The translations under genes and the position numbers were made by a program. From assembly GCA_017429465.1 (NCBI GenBank), contig JAFROU010000040.1, positions 1 to 15,293 of the forward strand: a stretch of DNA of 15,293 nucleotides, in the 5' to 3' direction. Position 1 is the stretch's first letter. Each line of letters starts with the position of its first letter. The notes beneath the pieces are model-generated. The model saw only the letters and a list, made by a program, of their open reading frames with translations. It searched no databases and was not told the DNA's origin. The stretch is from Candidatus Saccharimonadota bacterium (GTDB lineage Bacteria; Patescibacteria; Saccharimonadia; Saccharimonadales; Nanosyncoccaceae). This document shows positions 2,400-11,614 of the stretch, piece by piece.

Positions 2400-3944
2400 C
2401 TAATACTTATATTCAGATTTCGCGCTTTCCCAAAGCGTTGGTTCGTAAACCGTTCCTAAGAACCAAACCTCACCGTTACTTTTGTCTCGAATTACATAAA
2501 AGAATGGTTTGTTAATATAGAGATTAATTATCTCAGTATTTGGCATTCTATAACCACCGGCAGCGCCCTTCCCGCCCATTATAGTGACAGCCGCCGCTTT
2601 AATTCCTTCTTCGTTAAAATCAATTGTAGCTTTATGAATGGCCTCAGAAATATTATTACCTGGAGCCATATTAGACAAATCCGCATTATCACCAAAAACA
2701 TCGGTCACACCAAGCTGTTGAAGATCCTTTTTAAATTCTACTAACCCGCCATCATACTTAAACTTTGGAATGTGATAATTCAACGTAATATTCAAATCGG
2801 CACTGTTTGACTTAACTGGCTGAAGCTTCGCAATCAAATCATTAATTTTATTCATGCTTGTTGTAGCCACAAAATTTCTTAATTCCTGTGTTAACGGCAT
2901 CACGGCAACAAATTGCAATTGCGTATTCTCGTATTTTTTCAGATCAATAGCTAATAGAGTCGCATCACTACCAAAATAGTAACCAATACGAGTCGGATAT
3001 TCACCTTTTTCATTTCCTCTGTTACTAATACTGTCATTCATCATTGCAACCTTAAGTGCATTCGTGTCATCCTCGCTCTTCACATAAAAGCTACTTGAAC
3101 TAGTATTAGAAGCATCAAATCTGTGCTCCCAATCCATATCAATGGCTAAAGCGTTAATCAAGAAAAATGTATTGCTTTCAGATATTTCTTCGAGTGCATT
3201 TGGAATCATGTTGAATGTTTTTTCACTACACCAATTATTAATATTACCGACTGAAGTAAAATCATCGAATTTTAATTCTGCGTTATACTTCTGTTTTAAA
3301 AGATCAATGTATTCGGTCTTAACAACATCCCTTGCCTTATTGTTAACCCAGATTGAGTTAGCTAAACTTAAAACACCCTGGATATCGTTGTATTTCGTTA
3401 CCGAATTACCTGCGAGCAGCTTATCAATTTGAGCCTTAGTGTTGCCACCAGCCCCATCCGAAAGCATGGAAAGAGCATATTTAACAGATAGCGGACTATA
3501 AATTGTGTTTTTGCGTCCATTCTCTAACTTCAAAAGGTTTAGAGTCATGTCTCCGTCATGATAAACAGTTTCAACATCATCTTCATAATAAACAATTGGC
3601 TTAGCGCTTGTGCCTGTAGCCTCAGTCGTACTCTCACCAACGGTTTGAACCTGCGTGACTTCTTCACCAGTTTGAGTCGTAGTTTGAAGAGGCTTATTAG
3701 AACCCTTCTTGCCAAAGTTACTACCTAGGAAAATCGCCAAAAATACACCGCCCACCACGAATAATACAGCCATGATACAAAGCGCGGCTAATTTTGAATT
3801 CTTTTTTCTACTATCTTCATCTGGATGCAAATCTTCTTGCACAAAAAGGATTTTTTCCTCAGTTTTTGGATCTTTTTGCCCCTCTTGTTTTTCGCCCTGA
3901 TCACTCATAGGCGCTAGCTCCTCTGTATTTTTATGATCTTCCAT
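2400..3944 (-). CDS. Membrane-anchored serpin-family protein
   Basis: A 514-residue protein in four parts: a charged cytoplasmic N-terminus (1-50), one transmembrane helix (about 52-73), a Thr/Glu/Gln-rich linker (about 82-115) and a full serpin domain (about 133-508). The serpin marks are YSPLSVKYALSMLSDGAGGN near 149-168, the hinge NEEGIKAAAV (444-453) and the C-terminal INKPFFYVIRD (478-488). Positive charge before the helix (RKK, 46-48) suggests the serpin lies outside the membrane. Counting from the hinge Gly447 as P15 puts P1-P1' at Ala461-Ala462, a small-residue bait like those for elastase-type proteases. P14 is Ile rather than the usual Thr or Ser, which may affect loop insertion, so inhibitory activity is uncertain. 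It follows dprA by 42 bases but has its own promoter-like box. Confidence 0.9.
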   Translation of the reverse strand: MEDHKNTEELAPMSDQGEKQEGQKDPKTEEKILFVQEDLHPDEDSRKKNSKLAALCIMAVLFVVGGVFLAIFLGSNFGKKGSNKPLQTTTQTGEEVTQVQTVGESTTEATGTSAKPIVYYEDDVETVYHDGDMTLNLLKLENGRKNTIYSPLSVKYALSMLSDGAGGNTKAQIDKLLAGNSVTKYNDIQGVLSLANSIWVNNKARDVVKTEYIDLLKQKYNAELKFDDFTSVGNINNWCSEKTFNMIPNALEEISESNTFFLINALAIDMDWEHRFDASNTSSSSFYVKSEDDTNALKVAMMNDSISNRGNEKGEYPTRIGYYFGSDATLLAIDLKKYENTQLQFVAVMPLTQELRNFVATTSMNKINDLIAKLQPVKSNSADLNITLNYHIPKFKYDGGLVEFKKDLQQLGVTDVFGDNADLSNMAPGNNISEAIHKATIDFNEEGIKAAAVTIMGGKGAAGGYRMPNTEIINLYINKPFFYVIRDKSNGEVWFLGTVYEPTLWESAKSEYKY

Positions 3945-3986: not shown

Positions 3987-4898
3987 TTACCTTAGAACCC
4001 AGTTATTAGCACCTAGGCCCCTAATTAAGCCTTTTATTTCTAATAAAGTAACTATCTGGTTAAACTCTGTAACTGGAAGCTTCAGCTTAGCCATAATATC
4101 CTCTCCGTCTCTCACGCCTTCAGAAAGTAGTTTAAGAATGGCTGTTTCGGTAGGCGTATCACCCGCAATTAACCTCGGCTTTTCGCTCCGACGAGTAGGG
4201 AAGAGCAGATTTAAAACATCATCTATCTCTGTTAAAGGCATTGCCCCTTGTCGAATTAAACGATTGCAACCAACAGATAGTGGTTTAGTAATATCGCCAG
4301 GTACCACTAGTAAATCACGCCCCTGCTCTAGCGCGTGCGTCGCCGTGTTTAAGGTGCCAGATCGCTCTGCCGCCTCAGTAATAATTACTACATCGGCTAA
4401 ACCTGAAATTAACCGATTCCTTTCGAGAAAACTCGTTTTAAAATACGTTTTTGCGCCAGGAGCATATTCACTTATAATGCACCCGCCCTTCTCTATAATT
4501 TCGTTTGCTAGTCCCTGATTTTGCCGAGGATAAATATTATCTATCGCAGTACCTAAAATTGCCACCGTTTTGCCACCAGCGTCTAACGCGGCTCGATGCG
4601 AGATAGCATCTATGCCAATCGCAAGCCCAGATATTATTACTGCACCTCGTCGCGCTAACTCGTAAGATAATTTATAAGTGACCTCTTCTCCATACCTCGA
4701 ATTGTGCCTTGAACCTACTATTGCAACACATTTTGGCCGTTTTGAAACTCCATTTATTACTATATTTTCGGGCATTTTTCCATAGAAATATAACATTTTT
4801 GGCATAAGCGCAATAGTGTTTAACTTCTCTGTAAAAGTATGCTCTAGGGGTGATAATCCATTGATTTTTTGAAAAAAGTGTGCAAAAAGTGTTGACAT
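3987..4898 (-). CDS. dprA: DNA processing protein DprA (Smf)
   Basis: A 303-residue protein of the DprA/Smf family, which loads RecA onto incoming single-stranded DNA during natural transformation. The Rossmann-fold core (about 45-232) shows AIVGSRHNSRYG (59-70), ISGLAIGIDAISHRAAL (89-105), TVAILGTAIDNIYP (111-124), ISEYAPG (142-148), FLERNRLISGLADVVIITEA (157-176) and GTLNTA (181-186). A C-terminal winged helix (about 248-301) matches the usual DprA tail, while the N-terminal SAM-like domain is essentially missing. The start is ATG 4898-4896, preceded by GGAG eight bases upstream; an in-frame TTG at 4910 would overlap that ribosome binding site. The start codon lies inside the -35 box of the opposing RNA promoter, so transcription of the two may interfere. 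Confidence 0.93.
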   Translation of the reverse strand: MSTLFAHFFQKINGLSPLEHTFTEKLNTIALMPKMLYFYGKMPENIVINGVSKRPKCVAIVGSRHNSRYGEEVTYKLSYELARRGAVIISGLAIGIDAISHRAALDAGGKTVAILGTAIDNIYPRQNQGLANEIIEKGGCIISEYAPGAKTYFKTSFLERNRLISGLADVVIITEAAERSGTLNTATHALEQGRDLLVVPGDITKPLSVGCNRLIRQGAMPLTEIDDVLNLLFPTRRSEKPRLIAGDTPTETAILKLLSEGVRDGEDIMAKLKLPVTEFNQIVTLLEIKGLIRGLGANNWVLR

Positions 4899-4920
4899 TT
4901 TTAACTCCAAGTGGTATAAT
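4892..4920 (+). promoter_or_regulatory. Consensus sigma70 promoter of the structured RNA
   Basis: TTGACA (4892-4897), a 17-base spacer and TATAAT (4915-4920) match the consensus in both hexamers and in spacing. It is the strongest promoter in the window. The predicted start is near 4927. No open reading frame of size follows before the terminator at 5193-5232, so its product is an RNA. Confidence 0.88.
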
Positions 4921-4926
4921 CAGAAA

Positions 4927-5232
4927 CAGTTAGAGCTCATTCGGGCTCTAAACCGCACCTAAATAAATCATAATTTCTCTACGCTATATCTAGCGTAGCA
5001 GAAGTTGCGTGCTTTTGAAACCCTTCGGGCTCTCGATTTCTTTACGGTCGCTGAGTTTAAGTATTACCTCCACTTATGAAGGGTGCTTCGAAGGCATAGC
5101 AACCCCTATAACCGGCGGGCCCCAATTTGTGTGAGGTGGGTCGCGCTTCCGGGGTCACCCCGGTATCTATCAAGTGAAGCGTTATAGGGTCTAAAAACCC
5201 CAGGTGATGCCCACCCTTACCTGGGGTTTTTT
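4927..5232 (+). ncRNA. Unidentified structured non-coding RNA of about 305 nt
   Basis: The region between the promoter at 4892-4920 and the terminator at 5193-5232 folds extensively on paper. Hairpin 1: 4930-4938 with 4943-4951. Hairpin 2: CTACGCTA (4979-4986) with TAGCGTAG (4991-4998), perfect. A long-range helix pairs 5004-5026 with 5078-5103, about 23 bp, with only a two-base bulge (5085-5086), a one-base bulge (5098) and a few G-U pairs. Directly adjacent, CCCTATAAC (5104-5112) pairs with GTTATAGGG (5181-5189) and encloses hairpins 5115-5144 and 5149-5163. The loop ACCUC (5066-5070) is complementary to the loop GAGGU (5133-5137). I see no tmRNA tRNA-like end, no RNase P core, no SRP GGAAGGAAGC motif and no riboswitch core. 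The function is unknown; the strong promoter suggests abundance. Confidence 0.75.
5193..5232 (+). terminator. Strong intrinsic terminator of the structured RNA
   Basis: AAAAACCCCAGGT (5193-5205) pairs perfectly with ACCTGGGGTTTTT (5219-5231) around a 13-base loop, and the T run continues to 5232. The run of A on the other side makes it potentially bidirectional. The loop CCCACC (5210-5215) is also complementary to GGTGGG (5135-5140) inside the RNA. Confidence 0.9.
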
Positions 5233-5280: not shown

Positions 5281-7551
5281 ATGAGCAAAAATTTAGTCAT
5301 TGTAGAGTCGCCTGCCAAGGCTCATACCATCGAAAAATATCTGGGAAAAGACTTCAAAGTCTTAGCCTCGGTCGGGCATATTCGAAAAGATACCAAAGTC
5401 GATAAATCTACTTTTGACGTTACTTATGAGATCGATCCTGAACATAAAACTATTGTTAAAGAGCTAGCCGAAGCCGTTAAAGAAGCCGACAAAATCTGGC
5501 TCGCTACCGATGAAGACCGAGAAGGAGAAGCTATTTCTTGGCACCTTCTAGAAGTCTTAAAGCTGCCAAAAGACACCGCTCGCATCACTTTTCACGAAAT
5601 AACTAAATCAGCGCTAGAAGAGGCCATTAAACACCCCCGCACTGTAAATATGGACATGGTCTCTAGCCAGCAAGCTCGCCAAACACTCGATATGCTCGTT
5701 GGCTTTGACCTTTCTGGCTCAGTCCGCAAAAAAGTTCCAGGTGCAATTTCGGCTGGTCGCGTACAATCACCAGCACTTCGCCTGATTGTTGAACGTGAGC
5801 ACGAGATTGAAAAATATAACGGCAAATCCTCTTTTAAAGTCACTGCTGATTTTGGTTTTCCAGCCACGCTTGATCATACTTTCGACGATGAAAAATCTGC
5901 CACAGCTTTTCTAGAAAGTCTCAAAGATGCCGAATATAAAGTCCTAGATACCGAAACTACTCCTGGTGAGCGTAAACCACTGCCACCATTCACTACCGCA
6001 TCAATGCAGATTGAAGCCAACAGCAAACTCGGCTTCACTTCTCGCACTACCATGAATGCTGCTCAAGCACTCTACCAGGCAGGTCTAATTACTTATCACC
6101 GCACCGACAGCGTCAATCTTAGCAAACAAGCTCTCGCCATGATGGCAGACTATGTCGAAGAAAAATTTGGTAAAAACTATCTAAAAGTACGCAACTTTAA
6201 AACTAAAGATGCCAGTGCTCAAGAGGCTCATGAAGCTATTCGCCCAACCAATATTAATACAGCAGAAGCTGGTAAAAATAACTACGAAAAACGCCTTTAC
6301 AAATTAATCCGCGCTCGCGCTCTTGCCAGCCAAATGGCCGACGCCAAGCTCGAGAAAACCACTATTTCAATTAGTCATGATTTTGTTGCTAAAGGCGAAG
6401 TCGTAATATTTGACGGTTTTTTAAAAGTTTACGGACGTATCAAAGAAGAAGAGTTACCACCACTAAAAGTCGGCGATAAACTTAAAGCTAGCAGCGTTAC
6501 TGCGCATCAAACTTTTGGCAAAGCGCCAGCTCGTTACTCCGAAGGCTCACTCGTTAAAAAACTCGAAGAACTCGGTATCGGCCGCCCATCTACCTACGCT
6601 ACAATCATGACCGCTATTCAAGCCCGTGGCTACGTAGAAAAGGGCGAATCTAGTGGTGAAACCCGCGAAGTAATTGATCTAAAATTAGAAAACGGCAAAG
6701 TCACACGCAGCCTCGTAGAAGAAAAATTTGGCGCTGATAAAGGCAAGCTGATTCCAGCACCAATTGGCGAACTAGTCACTAGCTTTCTTGTTGATAATTT
6801 TAAAAATATCGTTGACTATAAATTCACAGCCAACATTGAAAAAGACCTTGATTTAATTGCTGAGCACAAACTTGAGCGCGTCAAGATGCTGCGCGACTTT
6901 TATAAACTCTTTAATAACGATGTCCTCGCCGCTGATGGCGCCAAACGTTACAATAACGCGCGCTTACTCGGTCATGAACCAAAAACCGGCCTACCAGTCT
7001 ACGCAAAAGTTGGTAAAAATGGCGGTTTTATTCAGGTTGGAGATAGTGAAAAAGACGCCGGTGAAAAACCTCGCTTTGCACCGTTACCAAAACGTAAATC
7101 CGTCAAGACTGTCACCTTTGAACAAGCCCTCAAACAGCTAGAATTACCATCCCTACCACGCGTTCTTGGCACGTCTAAAGATGGCACTGAAATCATCGCT
7201 GCCGCCGGACCATTTGGACCATATTTAAAGTGTGGTAAATATAACGTACCAATCAAAGATTATGACCCATATACTATCACCTTCGAACAAGCCGATCCAC
7301 TATACCGCGCTAAAGTCGACTCAATTATTGCTGATTGGGGCGATATTATGATTATTAAAGGTGCTTACGGCCCATATGTAAAAGGCCCAGGCCGCCGCAA
7401 CAATGTTAAAATACCAGCTGACCAAGATCCAAAGAAGTTAACCAGAGCCGAGGCCGAAGATTTACTAAAAAACAAGCCAAAAGCCACCAGACACGCTAAA
7501 CATCGTCGCAAAACCGCCAAAAAATCTGCTAAAAAAGTTGCCAAAAAATAA
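5281..7551 (+). CDS. topA: DNA topoisomerase I (type IA)
   Basis: A 756-residue type IA topoisomerase that relaxes negative supercoils by transient single-strand cleavage. The Toprim domain starts at once with NLVIVESPAKAHTIEKYLG (4-22, Glu9) and has the acidic triad ATDEDREGE (D77, D79, E81). SAGRVQSP (157-164) and LITYHRTDSVNLS with the catalytic Tyr272 mark the cleavage domain. The C-terminal part has no cysteine zinc fingers. It carries glycine-rich topoisomerase C-terminal repeats instead (GPFGPYLKCG and GAYGPYVKG), then a Lys/Arg-rich, histone-like tail over the last 25 residues. The start is ATG 5281 because the canonical MSKNLVIVESPAK begins there; an in-frame ATG at 5248 precedes the promoter box and is unlikely to be used. 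Confidence 0.97.
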   Translation: MSKNLVIVESPAKAHTIEKYLGKDFKVLASVGHIRKDTKVDKSTFDVTYEIDPEHKTIVKELAEAVKEADKIWLATDEDREGEAISWHLLEVLKLPKDTARITFHEITKSALEEAIKHPRTVNMDMVSSQQARQTLDMLVGFDLSGSVRKKVPGAISAGRVQSPALRLIVEREHEIEKYNGKSSFKVTADFGFPATLDHTFDDEKSATAFLESLKDAEYKVLDTETTPGERKPLPPFTTASMQIEANSKLGFTSRTTMNAAQALYQAGLITYHRTDSVNLSKQALAMMADYVEEKFGKNYLKVRNFKTKDASAQEAHEAIRPTNINTAEAGKNNYEKRLYKLIRARALASQMADAKLEKTTISISHDFVAKGEVVIFDGFLKVYGRIKEEELPPLKVGDKLKASSVTAHQTFGKAPARYSEGSLVKKLEELGIGRPSTYATIMTAIQARGYVEKGESSGETREVIDLKLENGKVTRSLVEEKFGADKGKLIPAPIGELVTSFLVDNFKNIVDYKFTANIEKDLDLIAEHKLERVKMLRDFYKLFNNDVLAADGAKRYNNARLLGHEPKTGLPVYAKVGKNGGFIQVGDSEKDAGEKPRFAPLPKRKSVKTVTFEQALKQLELPSLPRVLGTSKDGTEIIAAAGPFGPYLKCGKYNVPIKDYDPYTITFEQADPLYRAKVDSIIADWGDIMIIKGAYGPYVKGPGRRNNVKIPADQDPKKLTRAEAEDLLKNKPKATRHAKHRRKTAKKSAKKVAKK

Positions 7552-7701: not shown

Positions 7702-7730
7702 TTGACATTTGCACATATTTATTGTATCAT
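7702..7730 (+). promoter_or_regulatory. Proximal sigma70 promoter of the sigma4-HARE gene
   Basis: TTGACA (7702-7707), 17 bases, TATCAT (7725-7730). The start would be near 7737 and the leader about 43 bases, with AAGGAA seven bases before the ATG at 7780. Unlike its neighbours, this gene therefore has a conventional leader and ribosome binding site. Confidence 0.7.
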
Positions 7731-7779: not shown

Positions 7780-8808
7780 ATGAACCAAAATGCGGAAATA
7801 ATTGCGAATGCAATTAATGGCAGCCTTAATATCATCGATCAAGACCGCGAAAAGGAAATTGTCTCGCGTCGTTTTGGTCTCTCTGGACAAAAAGAGACCC
7901 TCGAACAAATCGGCGAGATGCTTTCAATCACTCGCGAACGCGTCCGTCAACTCGAAAAGGCCATTCTTATCCGTCTCCGCATTGGCGCTGAAGAATCCAA
8001 AATTTCCGAGTTAGCCGCCGCTGAAAAAGTTATCATCCGCAATCTTACCGAGATGGGCCGTATCGCCAAAATCGCCAATCTCGCTGATAAAATCTATGGT
8101 CGTTCCGCAACTCCAGCTGAAAAAGCCGGCCTTCAATTTTTAGGCAACATCTCTAGCAATCTCACTATCGTAGAAGAAAACGATAAATATGCTGCTGCAA
8201 TCGGTATCGCTGAATATGGCGACGAAAAAACCATCCGTACCAAAGTTGACGAAATCGTTGCTATCATTAAAGCCAACAAGGCTCCAATGACGCTTGACGA
8301 GCTTGATAATAAACTCAACTATGAGCATCCAGACCACATTAAGGCTGTTGCTTCTGTCTCTAAACTACTTTCCACTTTGAACGGACTTTGGGGACTTGCT
8401 AAATGGCCGACTGTTAATCCAAAGAACATTCGCGACAAAATTTACGTCGTGCTCGAATCTAATAAAGAGCCAATGCATTTTGCCGATATCGCCAAAGCTA
8501 TCTCCGATTCTAGCTTCAAACGCAAAAATGTAACCATCCAAGCTATTCATAACGAACTAATTAAAGACTCTCGTTTTGTATTGATTGGCCGTGGTATTTA
8601 CGCTCTTGATAGCTGGGGTTATTCTAAAGGCACTGTTGCCGACATCATCACTAGTATTCTAAAGAGCGCTGGCAAACCACTCAGCCGCGAAGAAATCGTC
8701 AAACAAGTTTTGAAGAGCCGTAAGGTTAAAGAAACTACCATCCTTCTTAATCTTCAAAACAAGAAATTATTTAAGAAAGCCGACAAAAACAGCTACACTT
8801 TAGCATAA
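7780..8808 (+). CDS. Sigma-region-4 plus HARE/winged-helix transcription protein
   Basis: A 342-residue protein whose residues 22-68 look like sigma70 region 4, the helix-turn-helix that reads -35 elements: REKEIVSRRFGL, LEQIGEMLSITRERVRQLEK, AILIRLR. There is no region 2, so it cannot melt a -10 element and is not a complete sigma factor. The rest is a chain of winged-helix units at about 80-145, 154-210, 216-278 and 283-341. The third, with MHFADIAKAI and RGIYAL, resembles the HARE-HTH fold of the RNA polymerase delta subunit. A role as an RNA polymerase-associated regulator is inferred. The start has a clear ribosome binding site. It lies just upstream of the ATPase gene, which seems to have its own promoter. 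Confidence 0.82.
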   Translation: MNQNAEIIANAINGSLNIIDQDREKEIVSRRFGLSGQKETLEQIGEMLSITRERVRQLEKAILIRLRIGAEESKISELAAAEKVIIRNLTEMGRIAKIANLADKIYGRSATPAEKAGLQFLGNISSNLTIVEENDKYAAAIGIAEYGDEKTIRTKVDEIVAIIKANKAPMTLDELDNKLNYEHPDHIKAVASVSKLLSTLNGLWGLAKWPTVNPKNIRDKIYVVLESNKEPMHFADIAKAISDSSFKRKNVTIQAIHNELIKDSRFVLIGRGIYALDSWGYSKGTVADIITSILKSAGKPLSREEIVKQVLKSRKVKETTILLNLQNKKLFKKADKNSYTLA

Positions 8809-8839: not shown

Positions 8840-11614
8840 ATGGGAATTTTGAAATTTATTTTAATGCCAATCGTTTGGATCCCAATCGTGGGCGTGTTGG
8901 CATATCTTACCTATCGCAACTATAAAAAGATGAATACTCTGAAGGTTTTAAACGTCGACTCCGTACTTTTAATGCTGGAAATTCCACGCACCAACGATAA
9001 GAAAGAGTTGGCCGCCGAGCAATTGTTTGCTTCACTTCATGGTATTCTGCGCGACGCTGAAGAACTCAGAAATTCAGGTGGCGTACAGGAACATTTATCA
9101 TTTGAAATCGTTTCCACTGGTGGCCAAATTCGCTTTTACGTTTGGGTGCCAAAAATCTTACAAAGCTTTGTCGAAGGCCAGATTTATTCCCAATATCCAA
9201 CCGTCCAAATCTATAAAATGGACGACGATTACGCTGACAACCGTCACAAACACCCAATAGTCTATTCCACTGAGCTAACTTTAACCGACAACGAAGTTTT
9301 ACCAATTAAAACCTTTGAAAACTTTGAAGTCGATCCACTTGCCGGCATCACCGGTACACTAGCTAAACTCGACCCAGACCATTCTGAAGAACTTTGGATC
9401 CAAATTCTTACTCGCCCAATCGCTGATGACTGGCACAAAAACACCACCGATAAATGGGTTAAAGAAGTAAAAACAGGCAAAAAACCATTCAAGATTCCAG
9501 GTATTGATATTGATTTTGTCTGGCTAGCTGAAGTCTTTAGCGCGCTTTGGAAACCACCAGAAGGTGGCACCGGCTCTGCCGCTGCAGCTCCAGAATTATC
9601 TGAACGTGACAAAACTCGCATTTCTAAAGCCGAAGAAAAAGCCACTAAACTTGGCTACCAAGTCAAAATTCGTCTAGCTTACCTAGGCAGCAACGACGTC
9701 GATGCCAAATTAAATATGCAAGCCTTAGTTGGTACTTTTAAACAGTTTAACTCTACCAACCTAAACGGTTTCAAGGCTACCGAAGGTAGTTTCAGCGCCG
9801 AACCACTAGACAAATATAAGATGCGCGAATTTGCCGATGACGGCTTTATCTTAAACATCTCTGAGCTAGCTTCTGTCTTTCACTTACCACACACCTCAGT
9901 CGAAACTCCTAATATCGTCTGGGCTTCCGCTAAAACCGCTGAACCACCAGCCAAATTGCCTCTGATAACAGGGAATCCTGCAAATGACGAAGATATTTCC
10001 GCCTTCGGCCTAACCAATTTTCGTGGCATCAACCACCAGTTCGGTTTACTCCGTCGTGATCGTTCACGTCATGTTTATATTATTGGCCAAACCGGCGCAG
10101 GGAAGAGTGGATTACTTGAGCTCTTTGCCCTATCCGACATCTTCTATAACCAAGGTTATTGTATTATCGATCCACATGGCGACTTTGCCATCAACAACCT
10201 TCGTTTCGTGCCGCCTTCTCGCGTCAACGACGTTGTTTACTTTAATCCAGCTGATACATCTTATCCAGTAGCCTTTAACCCATTAGAGCTTTCTGATCCA
10301 GCCCGCAAGCCAAATGTCTGTTCTGAGGTAATCGGCGTGCTTAAACGTATGTTCGGCGACTCCTGGGGCCCACGTCTTGAGCATATTCTTCGTTATACCC
10401 TACTGGCATTGCTTGACCGCCCAGAAACCACTTTGCTTGATATTTCTCGCATGCTCACTGACAAAGATTTTCGCAAAGAAACACTTTCTTATTGTAACGA
10501 TGTAACAGTCTTACAATTCTGGAAACAAGAGTTTGGCCAATGGAACGATAAACAAGTTAACGAATCAATTGCGCCAGTTCTAAATAAGGTCGGTGCCTTT
10601 ACAGCTAATCCAATTATCCGCAACATCATTGGCCAACCAAAATCGTCCTTTGATGTGCGTAAGATTATGGATGAAGGTAAGATTCTTGTCGTCAACCTTT
10701 CTAAAGGTCTAATTGGTGAAGACAACGCCTCAATCCTTGGCGCATTCTTGGTCACTAAAGTGCAACTTGCCGCTATGTCTCGTTCCGACATTCCAGACGT
10801 TAAGGATCGCCGTCCATTCTACCTATACGTAGATGAATTTCAGAACTTTGCTACTGACTCCTTTGCTGTGATTCTTTCCGAAGCCCGTAAATACGGCCTG
10901 AACCTCACTGTCGCCAACCAATATATTGCGCAAATGACCGATAGTGTGCGTGATGCTGTCTTTGGCAACGTAGGTACAACTATTTCGTTCCGCGTTTCCG
11001 CTGATGATGCACCGCTACTTGTTAAACAATTTGAGCCAACCTTTGACCAATCCGACCTAATTCAAATGAATAATCGTCACTTCGTAATCAGCATGATTAT
11101 TAACGGCGAAAAAGTGCCAGCTTTCTCTGCTACTACCCTGTCCATTCCGAAGTCACCAAGCGATAACTTTGATGCTATTATTGAACACTCCCGCCGTGAA
11201 TTTTCTCGCCCACGCGCCGAAGTTGAAGAAGAAATCAAAGAGGCTATCGAACAATCAGAGAAGTATAAGAGGGAATTAAGCGAATCTGGACGCCATCCAG
11301 ACACCAATGATTCCCCGAAAAAAGAACAAAAACCGAACTTTAAATATGAACCTACTCCACAAGCTGATTTTCGTAAAGCCAAGCTTTCACCAAACCAGGC
11401 CGAAAATAAAACCAACCGTCTAAGCCTTAAGGATTTAGGTAAGTTAGTGGCCGAACGAGCAGAGAAAAAAGAAAATAATCAAAAATCTGACAAAAAGGGA
11501 AAGAAGGGAAAAGCTAATAGTTCCCTTAATTCCCCAGTTAAAACCGCCGAGAAGACCCCGAAACCGGCTGAAGACACAGATCAGACTAGGTTAAATATCA
11601 AACATAATAGATAA
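8840..11614 (+). CDS. Membrane-anchored TraG/VirB4/HerA-like P-loop ATPase
   Basis: A 924-residue protein with one N-terminal transmembrane helix (about 5-25), a large soluble domain (about 35-375) that I cannot assign firmly, and a RecA-like motor of the TraG/VirD4-VirB4-HerA group. Walker A is IIGQTGAGKSG (414-424), followed by IIDPHGDF (442-449). Walker B is FYLYVDEFQNF with D665 and E666. SEARKYGLNLTVANQYIAQM follows and matches the sensor region of TraD/TraG coupling proteins. The last 140 residues are charged, Lys/Glu/Pro-rich and probably disordered. Such ATPases move DNA or protein through type IV systems, but no other such component lies here, so the substrate is unknown. A domesticated DNA translocase or pilus motor is equally possible. 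It ends before a strong terminator. Confidence 0.85.
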   Translation: MGILKFILMPIVWIPIVGVLAYLTYRNYKKMNTLKVLNVDSVLLMLEIPRTNDKKELAAEQLFASLHGILRDAEELRNSGGVQEHLSFEIVSTGGQIRFYVWVPKILQSFVEGQIYSQYPTVQIYKMDDDYADNRHKHPIVYSTELTLTDNEVLPIKTFENFEVDPLAGITGTLAKLDPDHSEELWIQILTRPIADDWHKNTTDKWVKEVKTGKKPFKIPGIDIDFVWLAEVFSALWKPPEGGTGSAAAAPELSERDKTRISKAEEKATKLGYQVKIRLAYLGSNDVDAKLNMQALVGTFKQFNSTNLNGFKATEGSFSAEPLDKYKMREFADDGFILNISELASVFHLPHTSVETPNIVWASAKTAEPPAKLPLITGNPANDEDISAFGLTNFRGINHQFGLLRRDRSRHVYIIGQTGAGKSGLLELFALSDIFYNQGYCIIDPHGDFAINNLRFVPPSRVNDVVYFNPADTSYPVAFNPLELSDPARKPNVCSEVIGVLKRMFGDSWGPRLEHILRYTLLALLDRPETTLLDISRMLTDKDFRKETLSYCNDVTVLQFWKQEFGQWNDKQVNESIAPVLNKVGAFTANPIIRNIIGQPKSSFDVRKIMDEGKILVVNLSKGLIGEDNASILGAFLVTKVQLAAMSRSDIPDVKDRRPFYLYVDEFQNFATDSFAVILSEARKYGLNLTVANQYIAQMTDSVRDAVFGNVGTTISFRVSADDAPLLVKQFEPTFDQSDLIQMNNRHFVISMIINGEKVPAFSATTLSIPKSPSDNFDAIIEHSRREFSRPRAEVEEEIKEAIEQSEKYKRELSESGRHPDTNDSPKKEQKPNFKYEPTPQADFRKAKLSPNQAENKTNRLSLKDLGKLVAERAEKKENNQKSDKKGKKGKANSSLNSPVKTAEKTPKPAEDTDQTRLNIKHNR

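Follow-up and report, generated by a model that had tools for sequence, protein, structure and literature searches.

The interval 4926-5232 on the plus strand of the window (the whole 15,293-nt stretch of Candidatus Saccharimonadota DNA analysed here) looks like a stand-alone RNA gene, and its product is almost certainly a conserved functional RNA. That this RNA represents a class-wide family undescribed in Rfam 15 is well supported; the novelty lies in the RNA family and not in a mechanism. Comparison with relatives establishes, at the level of sequence, the main helices, the promoter, the distribution and a group of nearly invariant unpaired C-rich sites, and from the analysis of these features we infer action in trans with the C-rich sites as partner contacts. 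The explanation proposed is a structured RNA that acts in trans, is transcribed on its own, usually has a single copy and is kept across the Saccharibacteria class that holds Nanosyncoccus alces. Its transcription would start from a strong TG-extended promoter of the sigma-70 type, divergent from dprA, and would end at an intrinsic terminator whose hairpin would also be part of the working molecule. Its C-rich sites (ACCUWA in the 5' strand, CCUCC in hairpin P3d and GCCCACC in the terminator) would grip a partner, most likely a G-rich RNA such as ribosome-binding sites, by pairing, and the RNA would then be a class-wide regulator of translation.

The promoter agrees with the consensus at 12 of 12 positions and ranks top among the 34 promoter-like sites in the window. 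Since shuffled sequences contain 30.5 such sites, the number of sites is unremarkable and it is the promoter of the RNA that is special. The preliminary description had reported its TTGACA-17-TATAAT arrangement, to which a TG before the -10 box can be added, and had seen no gene between it and the terminator; both strands of the RNA are free of complete ORFs longer than 41 aa. Of the 111 RNA sequences compared (51 near sequences, redundancy-filtered, and 60 fetched; 110 are distinct because L115 repeats L052), 104 are preceded by a promoter that fits the consensus at 9 or more of 12 positions, with a spacing of 17 in 102 and the TG in 101. The seven misses consist of L059, which comes without upstream DNA, three cores cut at the 5' end (L142, L155 and L156), L139 with 8/12, and L013 and L019 with no candidate. 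Folding of the plus strand yields a minimum free energy of -120.1 kcal/mol; its shuffles average -87.5 (z -5.93), and none of the 100 reaches the observed value. The reverse strand of the interval also beats its shuffles, less strongly (z -3.98). Together with the covarying helices, this fold energy upholds the earlier proposal of a structured RNA that has a promoter and a terminator to itself; the gene is presumably transcribed.

Relatives' loci were found through TopA (n=80; 67-78% identity to the window TopA in the best segment), and their titles name Saccharibacteria in 78 cases, Candidatus Nanosyncoccus alces in one and an 'uncultured bacterium' in one. By blastn the RNA interval has counterparts in 72 of the 80, most alignments covering ~290 nt with 74-84% identity, while R1, a covariance model built from the window and 30 relatives' loci, matches the window and 71 of the 80, five of the 71 being cut by a contig end. 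R1 also yields ten low matches (17-27 bits) on the other strand, all of them overlapping the RNA at its 3' end. Nine loci are unmatched by R1, a result that concerns the locus only: L056 holds a 21-nt terminator piece at a contig start, L029, L033, L039 and L060 hold less than 900 nt upstream of topA, and L009, L010, L021 and L050 hold 1.4-5 kb without an RNA match.

Class and phylum genome samples were drawn around G005, the genome that holds the Candidatus Nanosyncoccus alces locus (L036) and whose phylum is Candidatus Saccharimonadota in the NCBI taxonomy; the class sampled is one that we take to be Saccharimonadia in GTDB. R1 matches 85 of 147 class genomes and 23 of 379 phylum genomes, R2, which describes the 3' module and draws on both near and distant members, matches 107 and 30, respectively, and R3, which covers 64 positions at the 3' end and was made from 31 of the 67 pieces prepared, matches 33 of the phylum genomes. 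All of the phylum matches by R1 (23/23) and R2 (30/30) and 32 of the 33 by R3 are on the class lists; the 33rd, G229, has its copy next to pth and topA, a setting shared with other members, and may be a class genome outside the matches listed. No match is shown outside the class in the 379-genome phylum sample, which was searched with stricter filters and few candidates scored per genome, and phage and plasmid records hold no RNA match. There is one match per genome with two exceptions, G434, in which pieces at the ends of two contigs fit one copy cut by assembly, and G482, in which two R2 rows overlap. Weak matches adjoin dprA, topA or pth (L192, L197, L199-L202) or dprA (L237, L238), a context indicating that the weak matches inspected are real.

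Covariation was assessed in three alignments: A1 contains the window and 30 of the 71 matching loci (31 near sequences), A3 contains 20 distant sequences (2 of 22 short distant members omitted, L142 as cut and L146 as odd) and A4 contains 30 near and distant sequences of the 3' module (3 of 33 prepared pieces omitted, L131, L132 and L134, one wrongly anchored and two with long inserts). In A1, the structure is paired in 93.5% of cells and both sides vary in 30 of its 76 pairs, compared with 16.9 in shuffles and at most 15 in slid registers, over which all of these structures are favoured by having been drawn on the alignments and then counted. The corresponding values are 97.3% and 27 of 47 (13.5; at most 9) in A3 and 99.4% and 17 of 26 (10.2; at most 8) in A4, where the covariation score is 0.462 against 0.161. 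A tree null was also applied, in the R-scape manner though not R-scape itself; it uses a G-test with average-product correction and columns evolved on a FastTree tree, each by its own parsimony changes. Significant pairs fall inside the structure in A4 (6 of 6; P4 and terminator), in A3 (3 of 3; P4 and terminator) and in a 101-sequence alignment (4 of 4 within its RNAalifold structure; P3, P4 and terminator). The preliminary description had named covariation as one check on its RNA; all significant pairs are inside the structure in three of four alignments. The near group, A1, has none in the structure as drawn and two outside it, one of which (columns 327-383) would lengthen the drawn terminator stem by one pair. 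No pair in P1, P2, P3b, P3d, P5 or P6 passed the tree null, and support for these comes from the simpler counts. On this comparative evidence the main helices of the RNA are under selection and are kept by compensatory changes.

Table 1. Features of the RNA gene and its neighbours in the window. The two strands of a helix are separated by a slash; A1 and A3 are the alignments defined in the text.
Feature	Position	Strand	Remarks
RNA	4926..5232	+	start placed by promoter spacing, end by terminator
Promoter	4892..4920	+	-35 TTGACA 4892-4897, 17-nt spacer, TG-extended -10 TATAAT 4915-4920
Hairpin P1	4930-4938/4943-4951	+	5/6 modelled pairs vary on both sides; 80.9% of cells paired (A1)
Unpaired 5' strand	4955..4966	+	GCACCUAAAUAA; GCACCUUAUACCCCC in distant members (A1, A3)
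Hairpin P2	4979-4986/4991-4998	+	length variable; 5/6 modelled pairs vary on both sides; 93.3% paired
Helix P3	5004-5008/5099-5103 and 5009-5019/5087-5097	+	100% paired in A1; 12/17 pairs vary on both sides in A3
Inner helix P3b	5021-5026/5078-5083	+	4/5 modelled pairs vary on both sides; 88% paired
Hairpin P3d	5059-5062/5072-5075	+	9-nt loop AUUACCUCC at 5063-5071
Helix P4	5104-5112/5181-5189	+	closes 3' domain; 30/30 sequences paired at each of 9 positions
Hairpin P5	5115-5122/5138-5146	+	97.8% of modelled cells paired; 3/6 pairs vary on both sides
Hairpin P6 (CCGGGG/CCCCGG)	5149..5163	+	77.8% of cells paired; no pair changed on both sides
Terminator hairpin	5193-5207/5217-5231	+	15 bp; 9-nt loop UGCCCACCC at 5208-5216
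dprA	3987..4898	-	Pfam DNA_processg_A 4.1e-67; ATG at 4898; divergent from RNA
topA	ATG at 5281	+	48 nt downstream of RNA

Much of this architecture had been anticipated. The two strong local hairpins of the preliminary description are both present as P1 and P2, and its 9-bp helix is exact, beginning directly after 5103. Its 23-bp helix (5004-5026 with 5078-5103) does pair in that region and is really two helices, 5004-5019 forming 16 pairs with 5087-5103 around a bulged A5098 and the 6-bp inner piece standing apart as P3b. Likewise its perfect CCGGGG/CCCCGG hairpin exists as P6 and proves to be the worst conserved of the 11 modelled helices, and its intrinsic terminator at 5193-5232 is there and folds with 15 bp, not 13. 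Two features are additions to that description, the hairpin P3d with its loop and the position of the -35 box over the first codons of dprA.

Within this structure, one pair of P3 is significant under the tree null in the 101-sequence set, and P3b encloses a variable covarying hairpin (7/8 pairs vary on both sides; 83.5% paired). The P3d stem is paired in 31 of 31 sequences and never varies in A1, and its sequence differs in distant members. Changes on both sides occur at 5 of the 9 positions of P4, for which the tree null gives a single significant pair in A3, in A4 and again in the 101-sequence set, and the terminator stem is 99.7% paired with 9 of 11 pairs varying on both sides and five significant in A4. 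Some distant members have a larger domain in place of P5. In many of the distant members L131-L172 the GUUAG of P3 is able to pair with either of two CUAAC copies, possibly a conformational switch in these members. A longer domain inside P4, with recurring GACUAUCCAGUAG and AGGCGC...GCUUC, is seen in L097-L104 and some of L145-L172.

Three unpaired C-rich sites are nearly invariant across the 111 sequences, the distant members of which were found by models that contain the C-rich loops and would miss members lacking them. GCCCACC, in the terminator loop near the 3' end, is present in 111 of 111; CCUCC, in the P3d loop, is present in 108, the three misses showing it once the cut end is extended; and ACCUWA, in the 5' strand, is present in 104, three of the seven misses being cut cores. 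The distant member L237, found by R3, has GACCACC in place of GCCCACC. At their best occurrences the sites have median unpaired probabilities of 0.92-0.95 (0.92 for ACCUWA) compared with 0.36 for all positions. The strongly covarying stem of the terminator surrounds a constant loop, from which it appears that the loop probably does more than end transcription. Intramolecular kissing loops, joining the P3d loop to P5 or to a GGAG loop and the terminator loop to GGUGGG, are hinted at by L153, L166 and L168 and were rejected. Among 85 sequences (26 of the 111 were dropped because their anchors were not all placed) the P3d matches are hardly longer than those of block-shuffled domains (5.0 vs 4.42 near, 4.41 vs 4.34 fetched; 0/85 at p<=0.05), and the terminator-loop matches are weakly longer (6.0 vs 4.71 near, 5.57 vs 4.60 fetched; 11/85 at p<=0.05).

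The gene neighbourhood bears on two explanations that would tie the RNA to an adjacent gene. A divergent and adjacent dprA accompanies the RNA in 54 of the 71 near loci and in 53 of the 60 class loci that were fetched (the genome of L052 and L115 being in both sets), and the -35 box of the RNA overlaps the first codons of dprA, as might be expected of a dprA-linked control element working by promoter overlap, by transcription interference or by direct control of dprA and hence DNA uptake. Such an element is improbable, since the RNA occurs without dprA in 10 of the 71 near loci even though each of these extends 600 nt or more upstream of it (seven more, with less than 600 nt, are too short to tell) and promoter overlap alone needs no 300 nt of covarying RNA. 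In addition, DprA is not among the significant fitness genes given for S. epibionticum in the portion of that study drawn on here, which is silent on transformation (PMC10633639). The dprA-topA context of the preliminary description thus holds across the class as far as dprA is concerned, but topA is not a constant neighbour. An attenuator or riboswitch leader of topA would agree with the 48 nt that separate the two in the window and with the 20 of 68 same-strand loci in which, as in the window, the RNA ends less than 150 nt upstream of topA. The distance across loci ranges from 24 to 3577 nt, topA is on the opposite strand in 4 of 72 loci, and in 43 of the 60 fetched loci it lies on the dprA side. 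Because the downstream gene varies, the RNA is not the leader of one gene, and the topA attenuator, which this variation contradicts, was rejected as having hardly any chance of being correct.

A relationship to a known RNA class is scarcely more probable. None of the 4227 Rfam families reaches its gathering score in the window; when the filters are relaxed, the highest score at the RNA is 16.8 bits against a cut-off of 49.5. Nor do 22 relatives (7 near, 15 distant) have a gathering-score match at the RNA under relaxed thresholds, sub-threshold overlaps in two distant relatives scoring 26.5 bits against 114 (L094) and 22.9 against 45 (L092). The novelty suggested at the outset therefore stands, together with the statement that the RNA is not in the usual classes, whereas the alternative offered there, a very divergent SRP RNA, 6S RNA, RNase P RNA or tmRNA, found no support and is very improbable. 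RNase P RNA (RF00010) and tmRNA (RF00023; ARAGORN 0) have no match at the locus, and each is found elsewhere in 9 of 10 relatives, tmRNA over cut-off. A vacancy could exist for the other two, as neither small nor large SRP RNA was matched in the 10 relatives (controls 11/14 and 6/14, both missing Bacillus subtilis), nor was 6S RNA (RF00013), which has no match at the locus either (only 5/14 controls); the large SRP and 6S negatives are weak. Ffh, however, is over its family cut-off in 0 of the same 10, three having ~17-bit fragments (14/14 controls match, 10 over cut-off), so that there is probably no SRP to serve and an SRP RNA identity is unlikely; Rfam gave no SRP RNA match at the locus, and a hand-typed SRP tip pattern, with no positive control, occurs in 0 of 10 genomes. 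6S RNA is one long stem with a central bubble, and it was rejected on its fold, the RNA here being predicted to form a chain of separate domains with unpaired ends. The 10 Saccharibacteria genomes G001-G010, with neither Ffh over cut-off nor an SRP RNA match, may lack the signal recognition particle. A literature search that left most subscription papers and preprints outside found no description of such an RNA, which leaves its absence from print unproven; for oral Saccharibacteria genomes, the portions of the reports drawn on give 2 and 1-4 annotated noncoding RNAs, unnamed.

Action in trans through the C-rich loops is thus to be judged mainly against a second role for the same loops. We consider such action only just short of an even chance, and that the loops act by pairing with RNA a possibility somewhat below that mark. 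CCUCC forms the core of the anti-Shine-Dalgarno sequence. Upstream of 558 ORF starts from the window, L001-L080 and L113-L172, a set dominated by few repeated genes, the Shine-Dalgarno-like AGGAG occurs in excess (84 vs 9). In this set complements of the terminator loop are not enriched upstream of ORFs (6-mers, 9 observed vs 7.0 shuffled), and those of the P3d loop (31 vs 16.2) and 5' strand (55 vs 32.2) give signals no better than the reversed control (34 vs 19.4). This target test, limited to ORFs near these loci, lends the pairing reading no support, and base-pairing sRNAs are rarely this conserved. TATAAT-like 5-mers are likewise enriched up to 22 nt upstream of ATG in these repeated genes (TTATA 138 vs 44 in one shuffle), which suggests leaderless mRNAs. 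The lack of excess over the reversed control would also fit an RNA of housekeeping type that serves as scaffold for an unknown ribonucleoprotein; its C-rich loops would then be protein-binding sites and not antisense. Such a role is favoured by the wide distribution, the usual single copy, the strong promoter and the retention of ~300 nt in genomes of ~0.6-1.7 Mb; moreover the loops are nearly invariant while the stems vary, and a protein partner fits this near-invariance at least as well as RNA pairing. The variable size across lineages (matches of 227-383 nt, some of them truncated) argues against it, and we consider the scaffold somewhat less probable than action in trans through the loops.

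The RNA can be compared with several known systems. OLE and the raiA motif are large conserved bacterial RNAs without a simple role, phylogenetically wide, highly structured and non-coding; the RNA described here is also wide, structured and non-coding, but the window matches none of the 4227 Rfam families. SRP RNA, 6S RNA, RNase P RNA and tmRNA resemble it in size and conservation and differ in having no match at this RNA. For the preferred reading, pairing of C-rich loops with G-rich RNA, the likeness is to RNAIII of Staphylococcus aureus, in which H14 is the terminator hairpin, and to LhrC of Listeria monocytogenes. The C-rich loops H7, H13 and H14 of RNAIII are described as interacting with Shine-Dalgarno sequences (PMC3861533), and the C-rich binding sites of LhrC as a hairpin loop, a single strand and a terminator loop (PMC4132741). 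The trait common to these RNAs, unpaired C-rich loops including one in the terminator hairpin, was found here in 111, 108 and 104 of the 111 sequences. RNAIII is, like the present RNA, long and structured with several C-rich loops; it is however staphylococcal and encodes delta-hemolysin, whereas the present RNA is class-wide and has no complete ORF above the length given, and no Rfam match links the two. LhrC has the same three-site C-rich layout but exists in five copies, in contrast to an RNA of ~300 nt that is usually single copy and has long-range helices.

Other features of the window deserve mention in their own right. A 342-aa protein with sigma-70 region 4 and HARE-HTH domains is encoded at 7780-8808 (+), with an 11/12 promoter at 7702-7730, and is possibly an unusual transcription factor. 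A serpin (protease inhibitor; Pfam 9.1e-62) with a hydrophobic stretch ahead of the serpin domain lies at 2400-3944 (-), and the bacterium that bears it is probably host-dependent. At 8840-11614 (+) is a 924-aa protein with type IV secretion coupling-protein and HerA-like domains.

Ultra-small parasitic bacteria with genomes of ~0.6-1.7 Mb keep an RNA of ~300 nt across their class that no Rfam family describes. Saccharibacteria are transformable and Tn-seq data exist, according to the sections of PMC10633639 drawn on, so that expression, need and partners become testable as soon as a cultured strain is found to carry the RNA. In the passages of a review that were consulted, the control of Saccharibacteria differentiation is called unknown and translation control is considered likely to be key (PMC11665869). 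A more speculative and rather unlikely proposal is that RNase P RNA and tmRNA have here a third, equally housekeeping-type companion that is widespread in Saccharibacteria, a group of which 10 genomes show no SRP RNA, no 6S RNA and no Ffh over cut-off. Its anti-Shine-Dalgarno-like and other C-rich loops would exert global control over translation, for instance during the transition between the swarmer and host-attached states.
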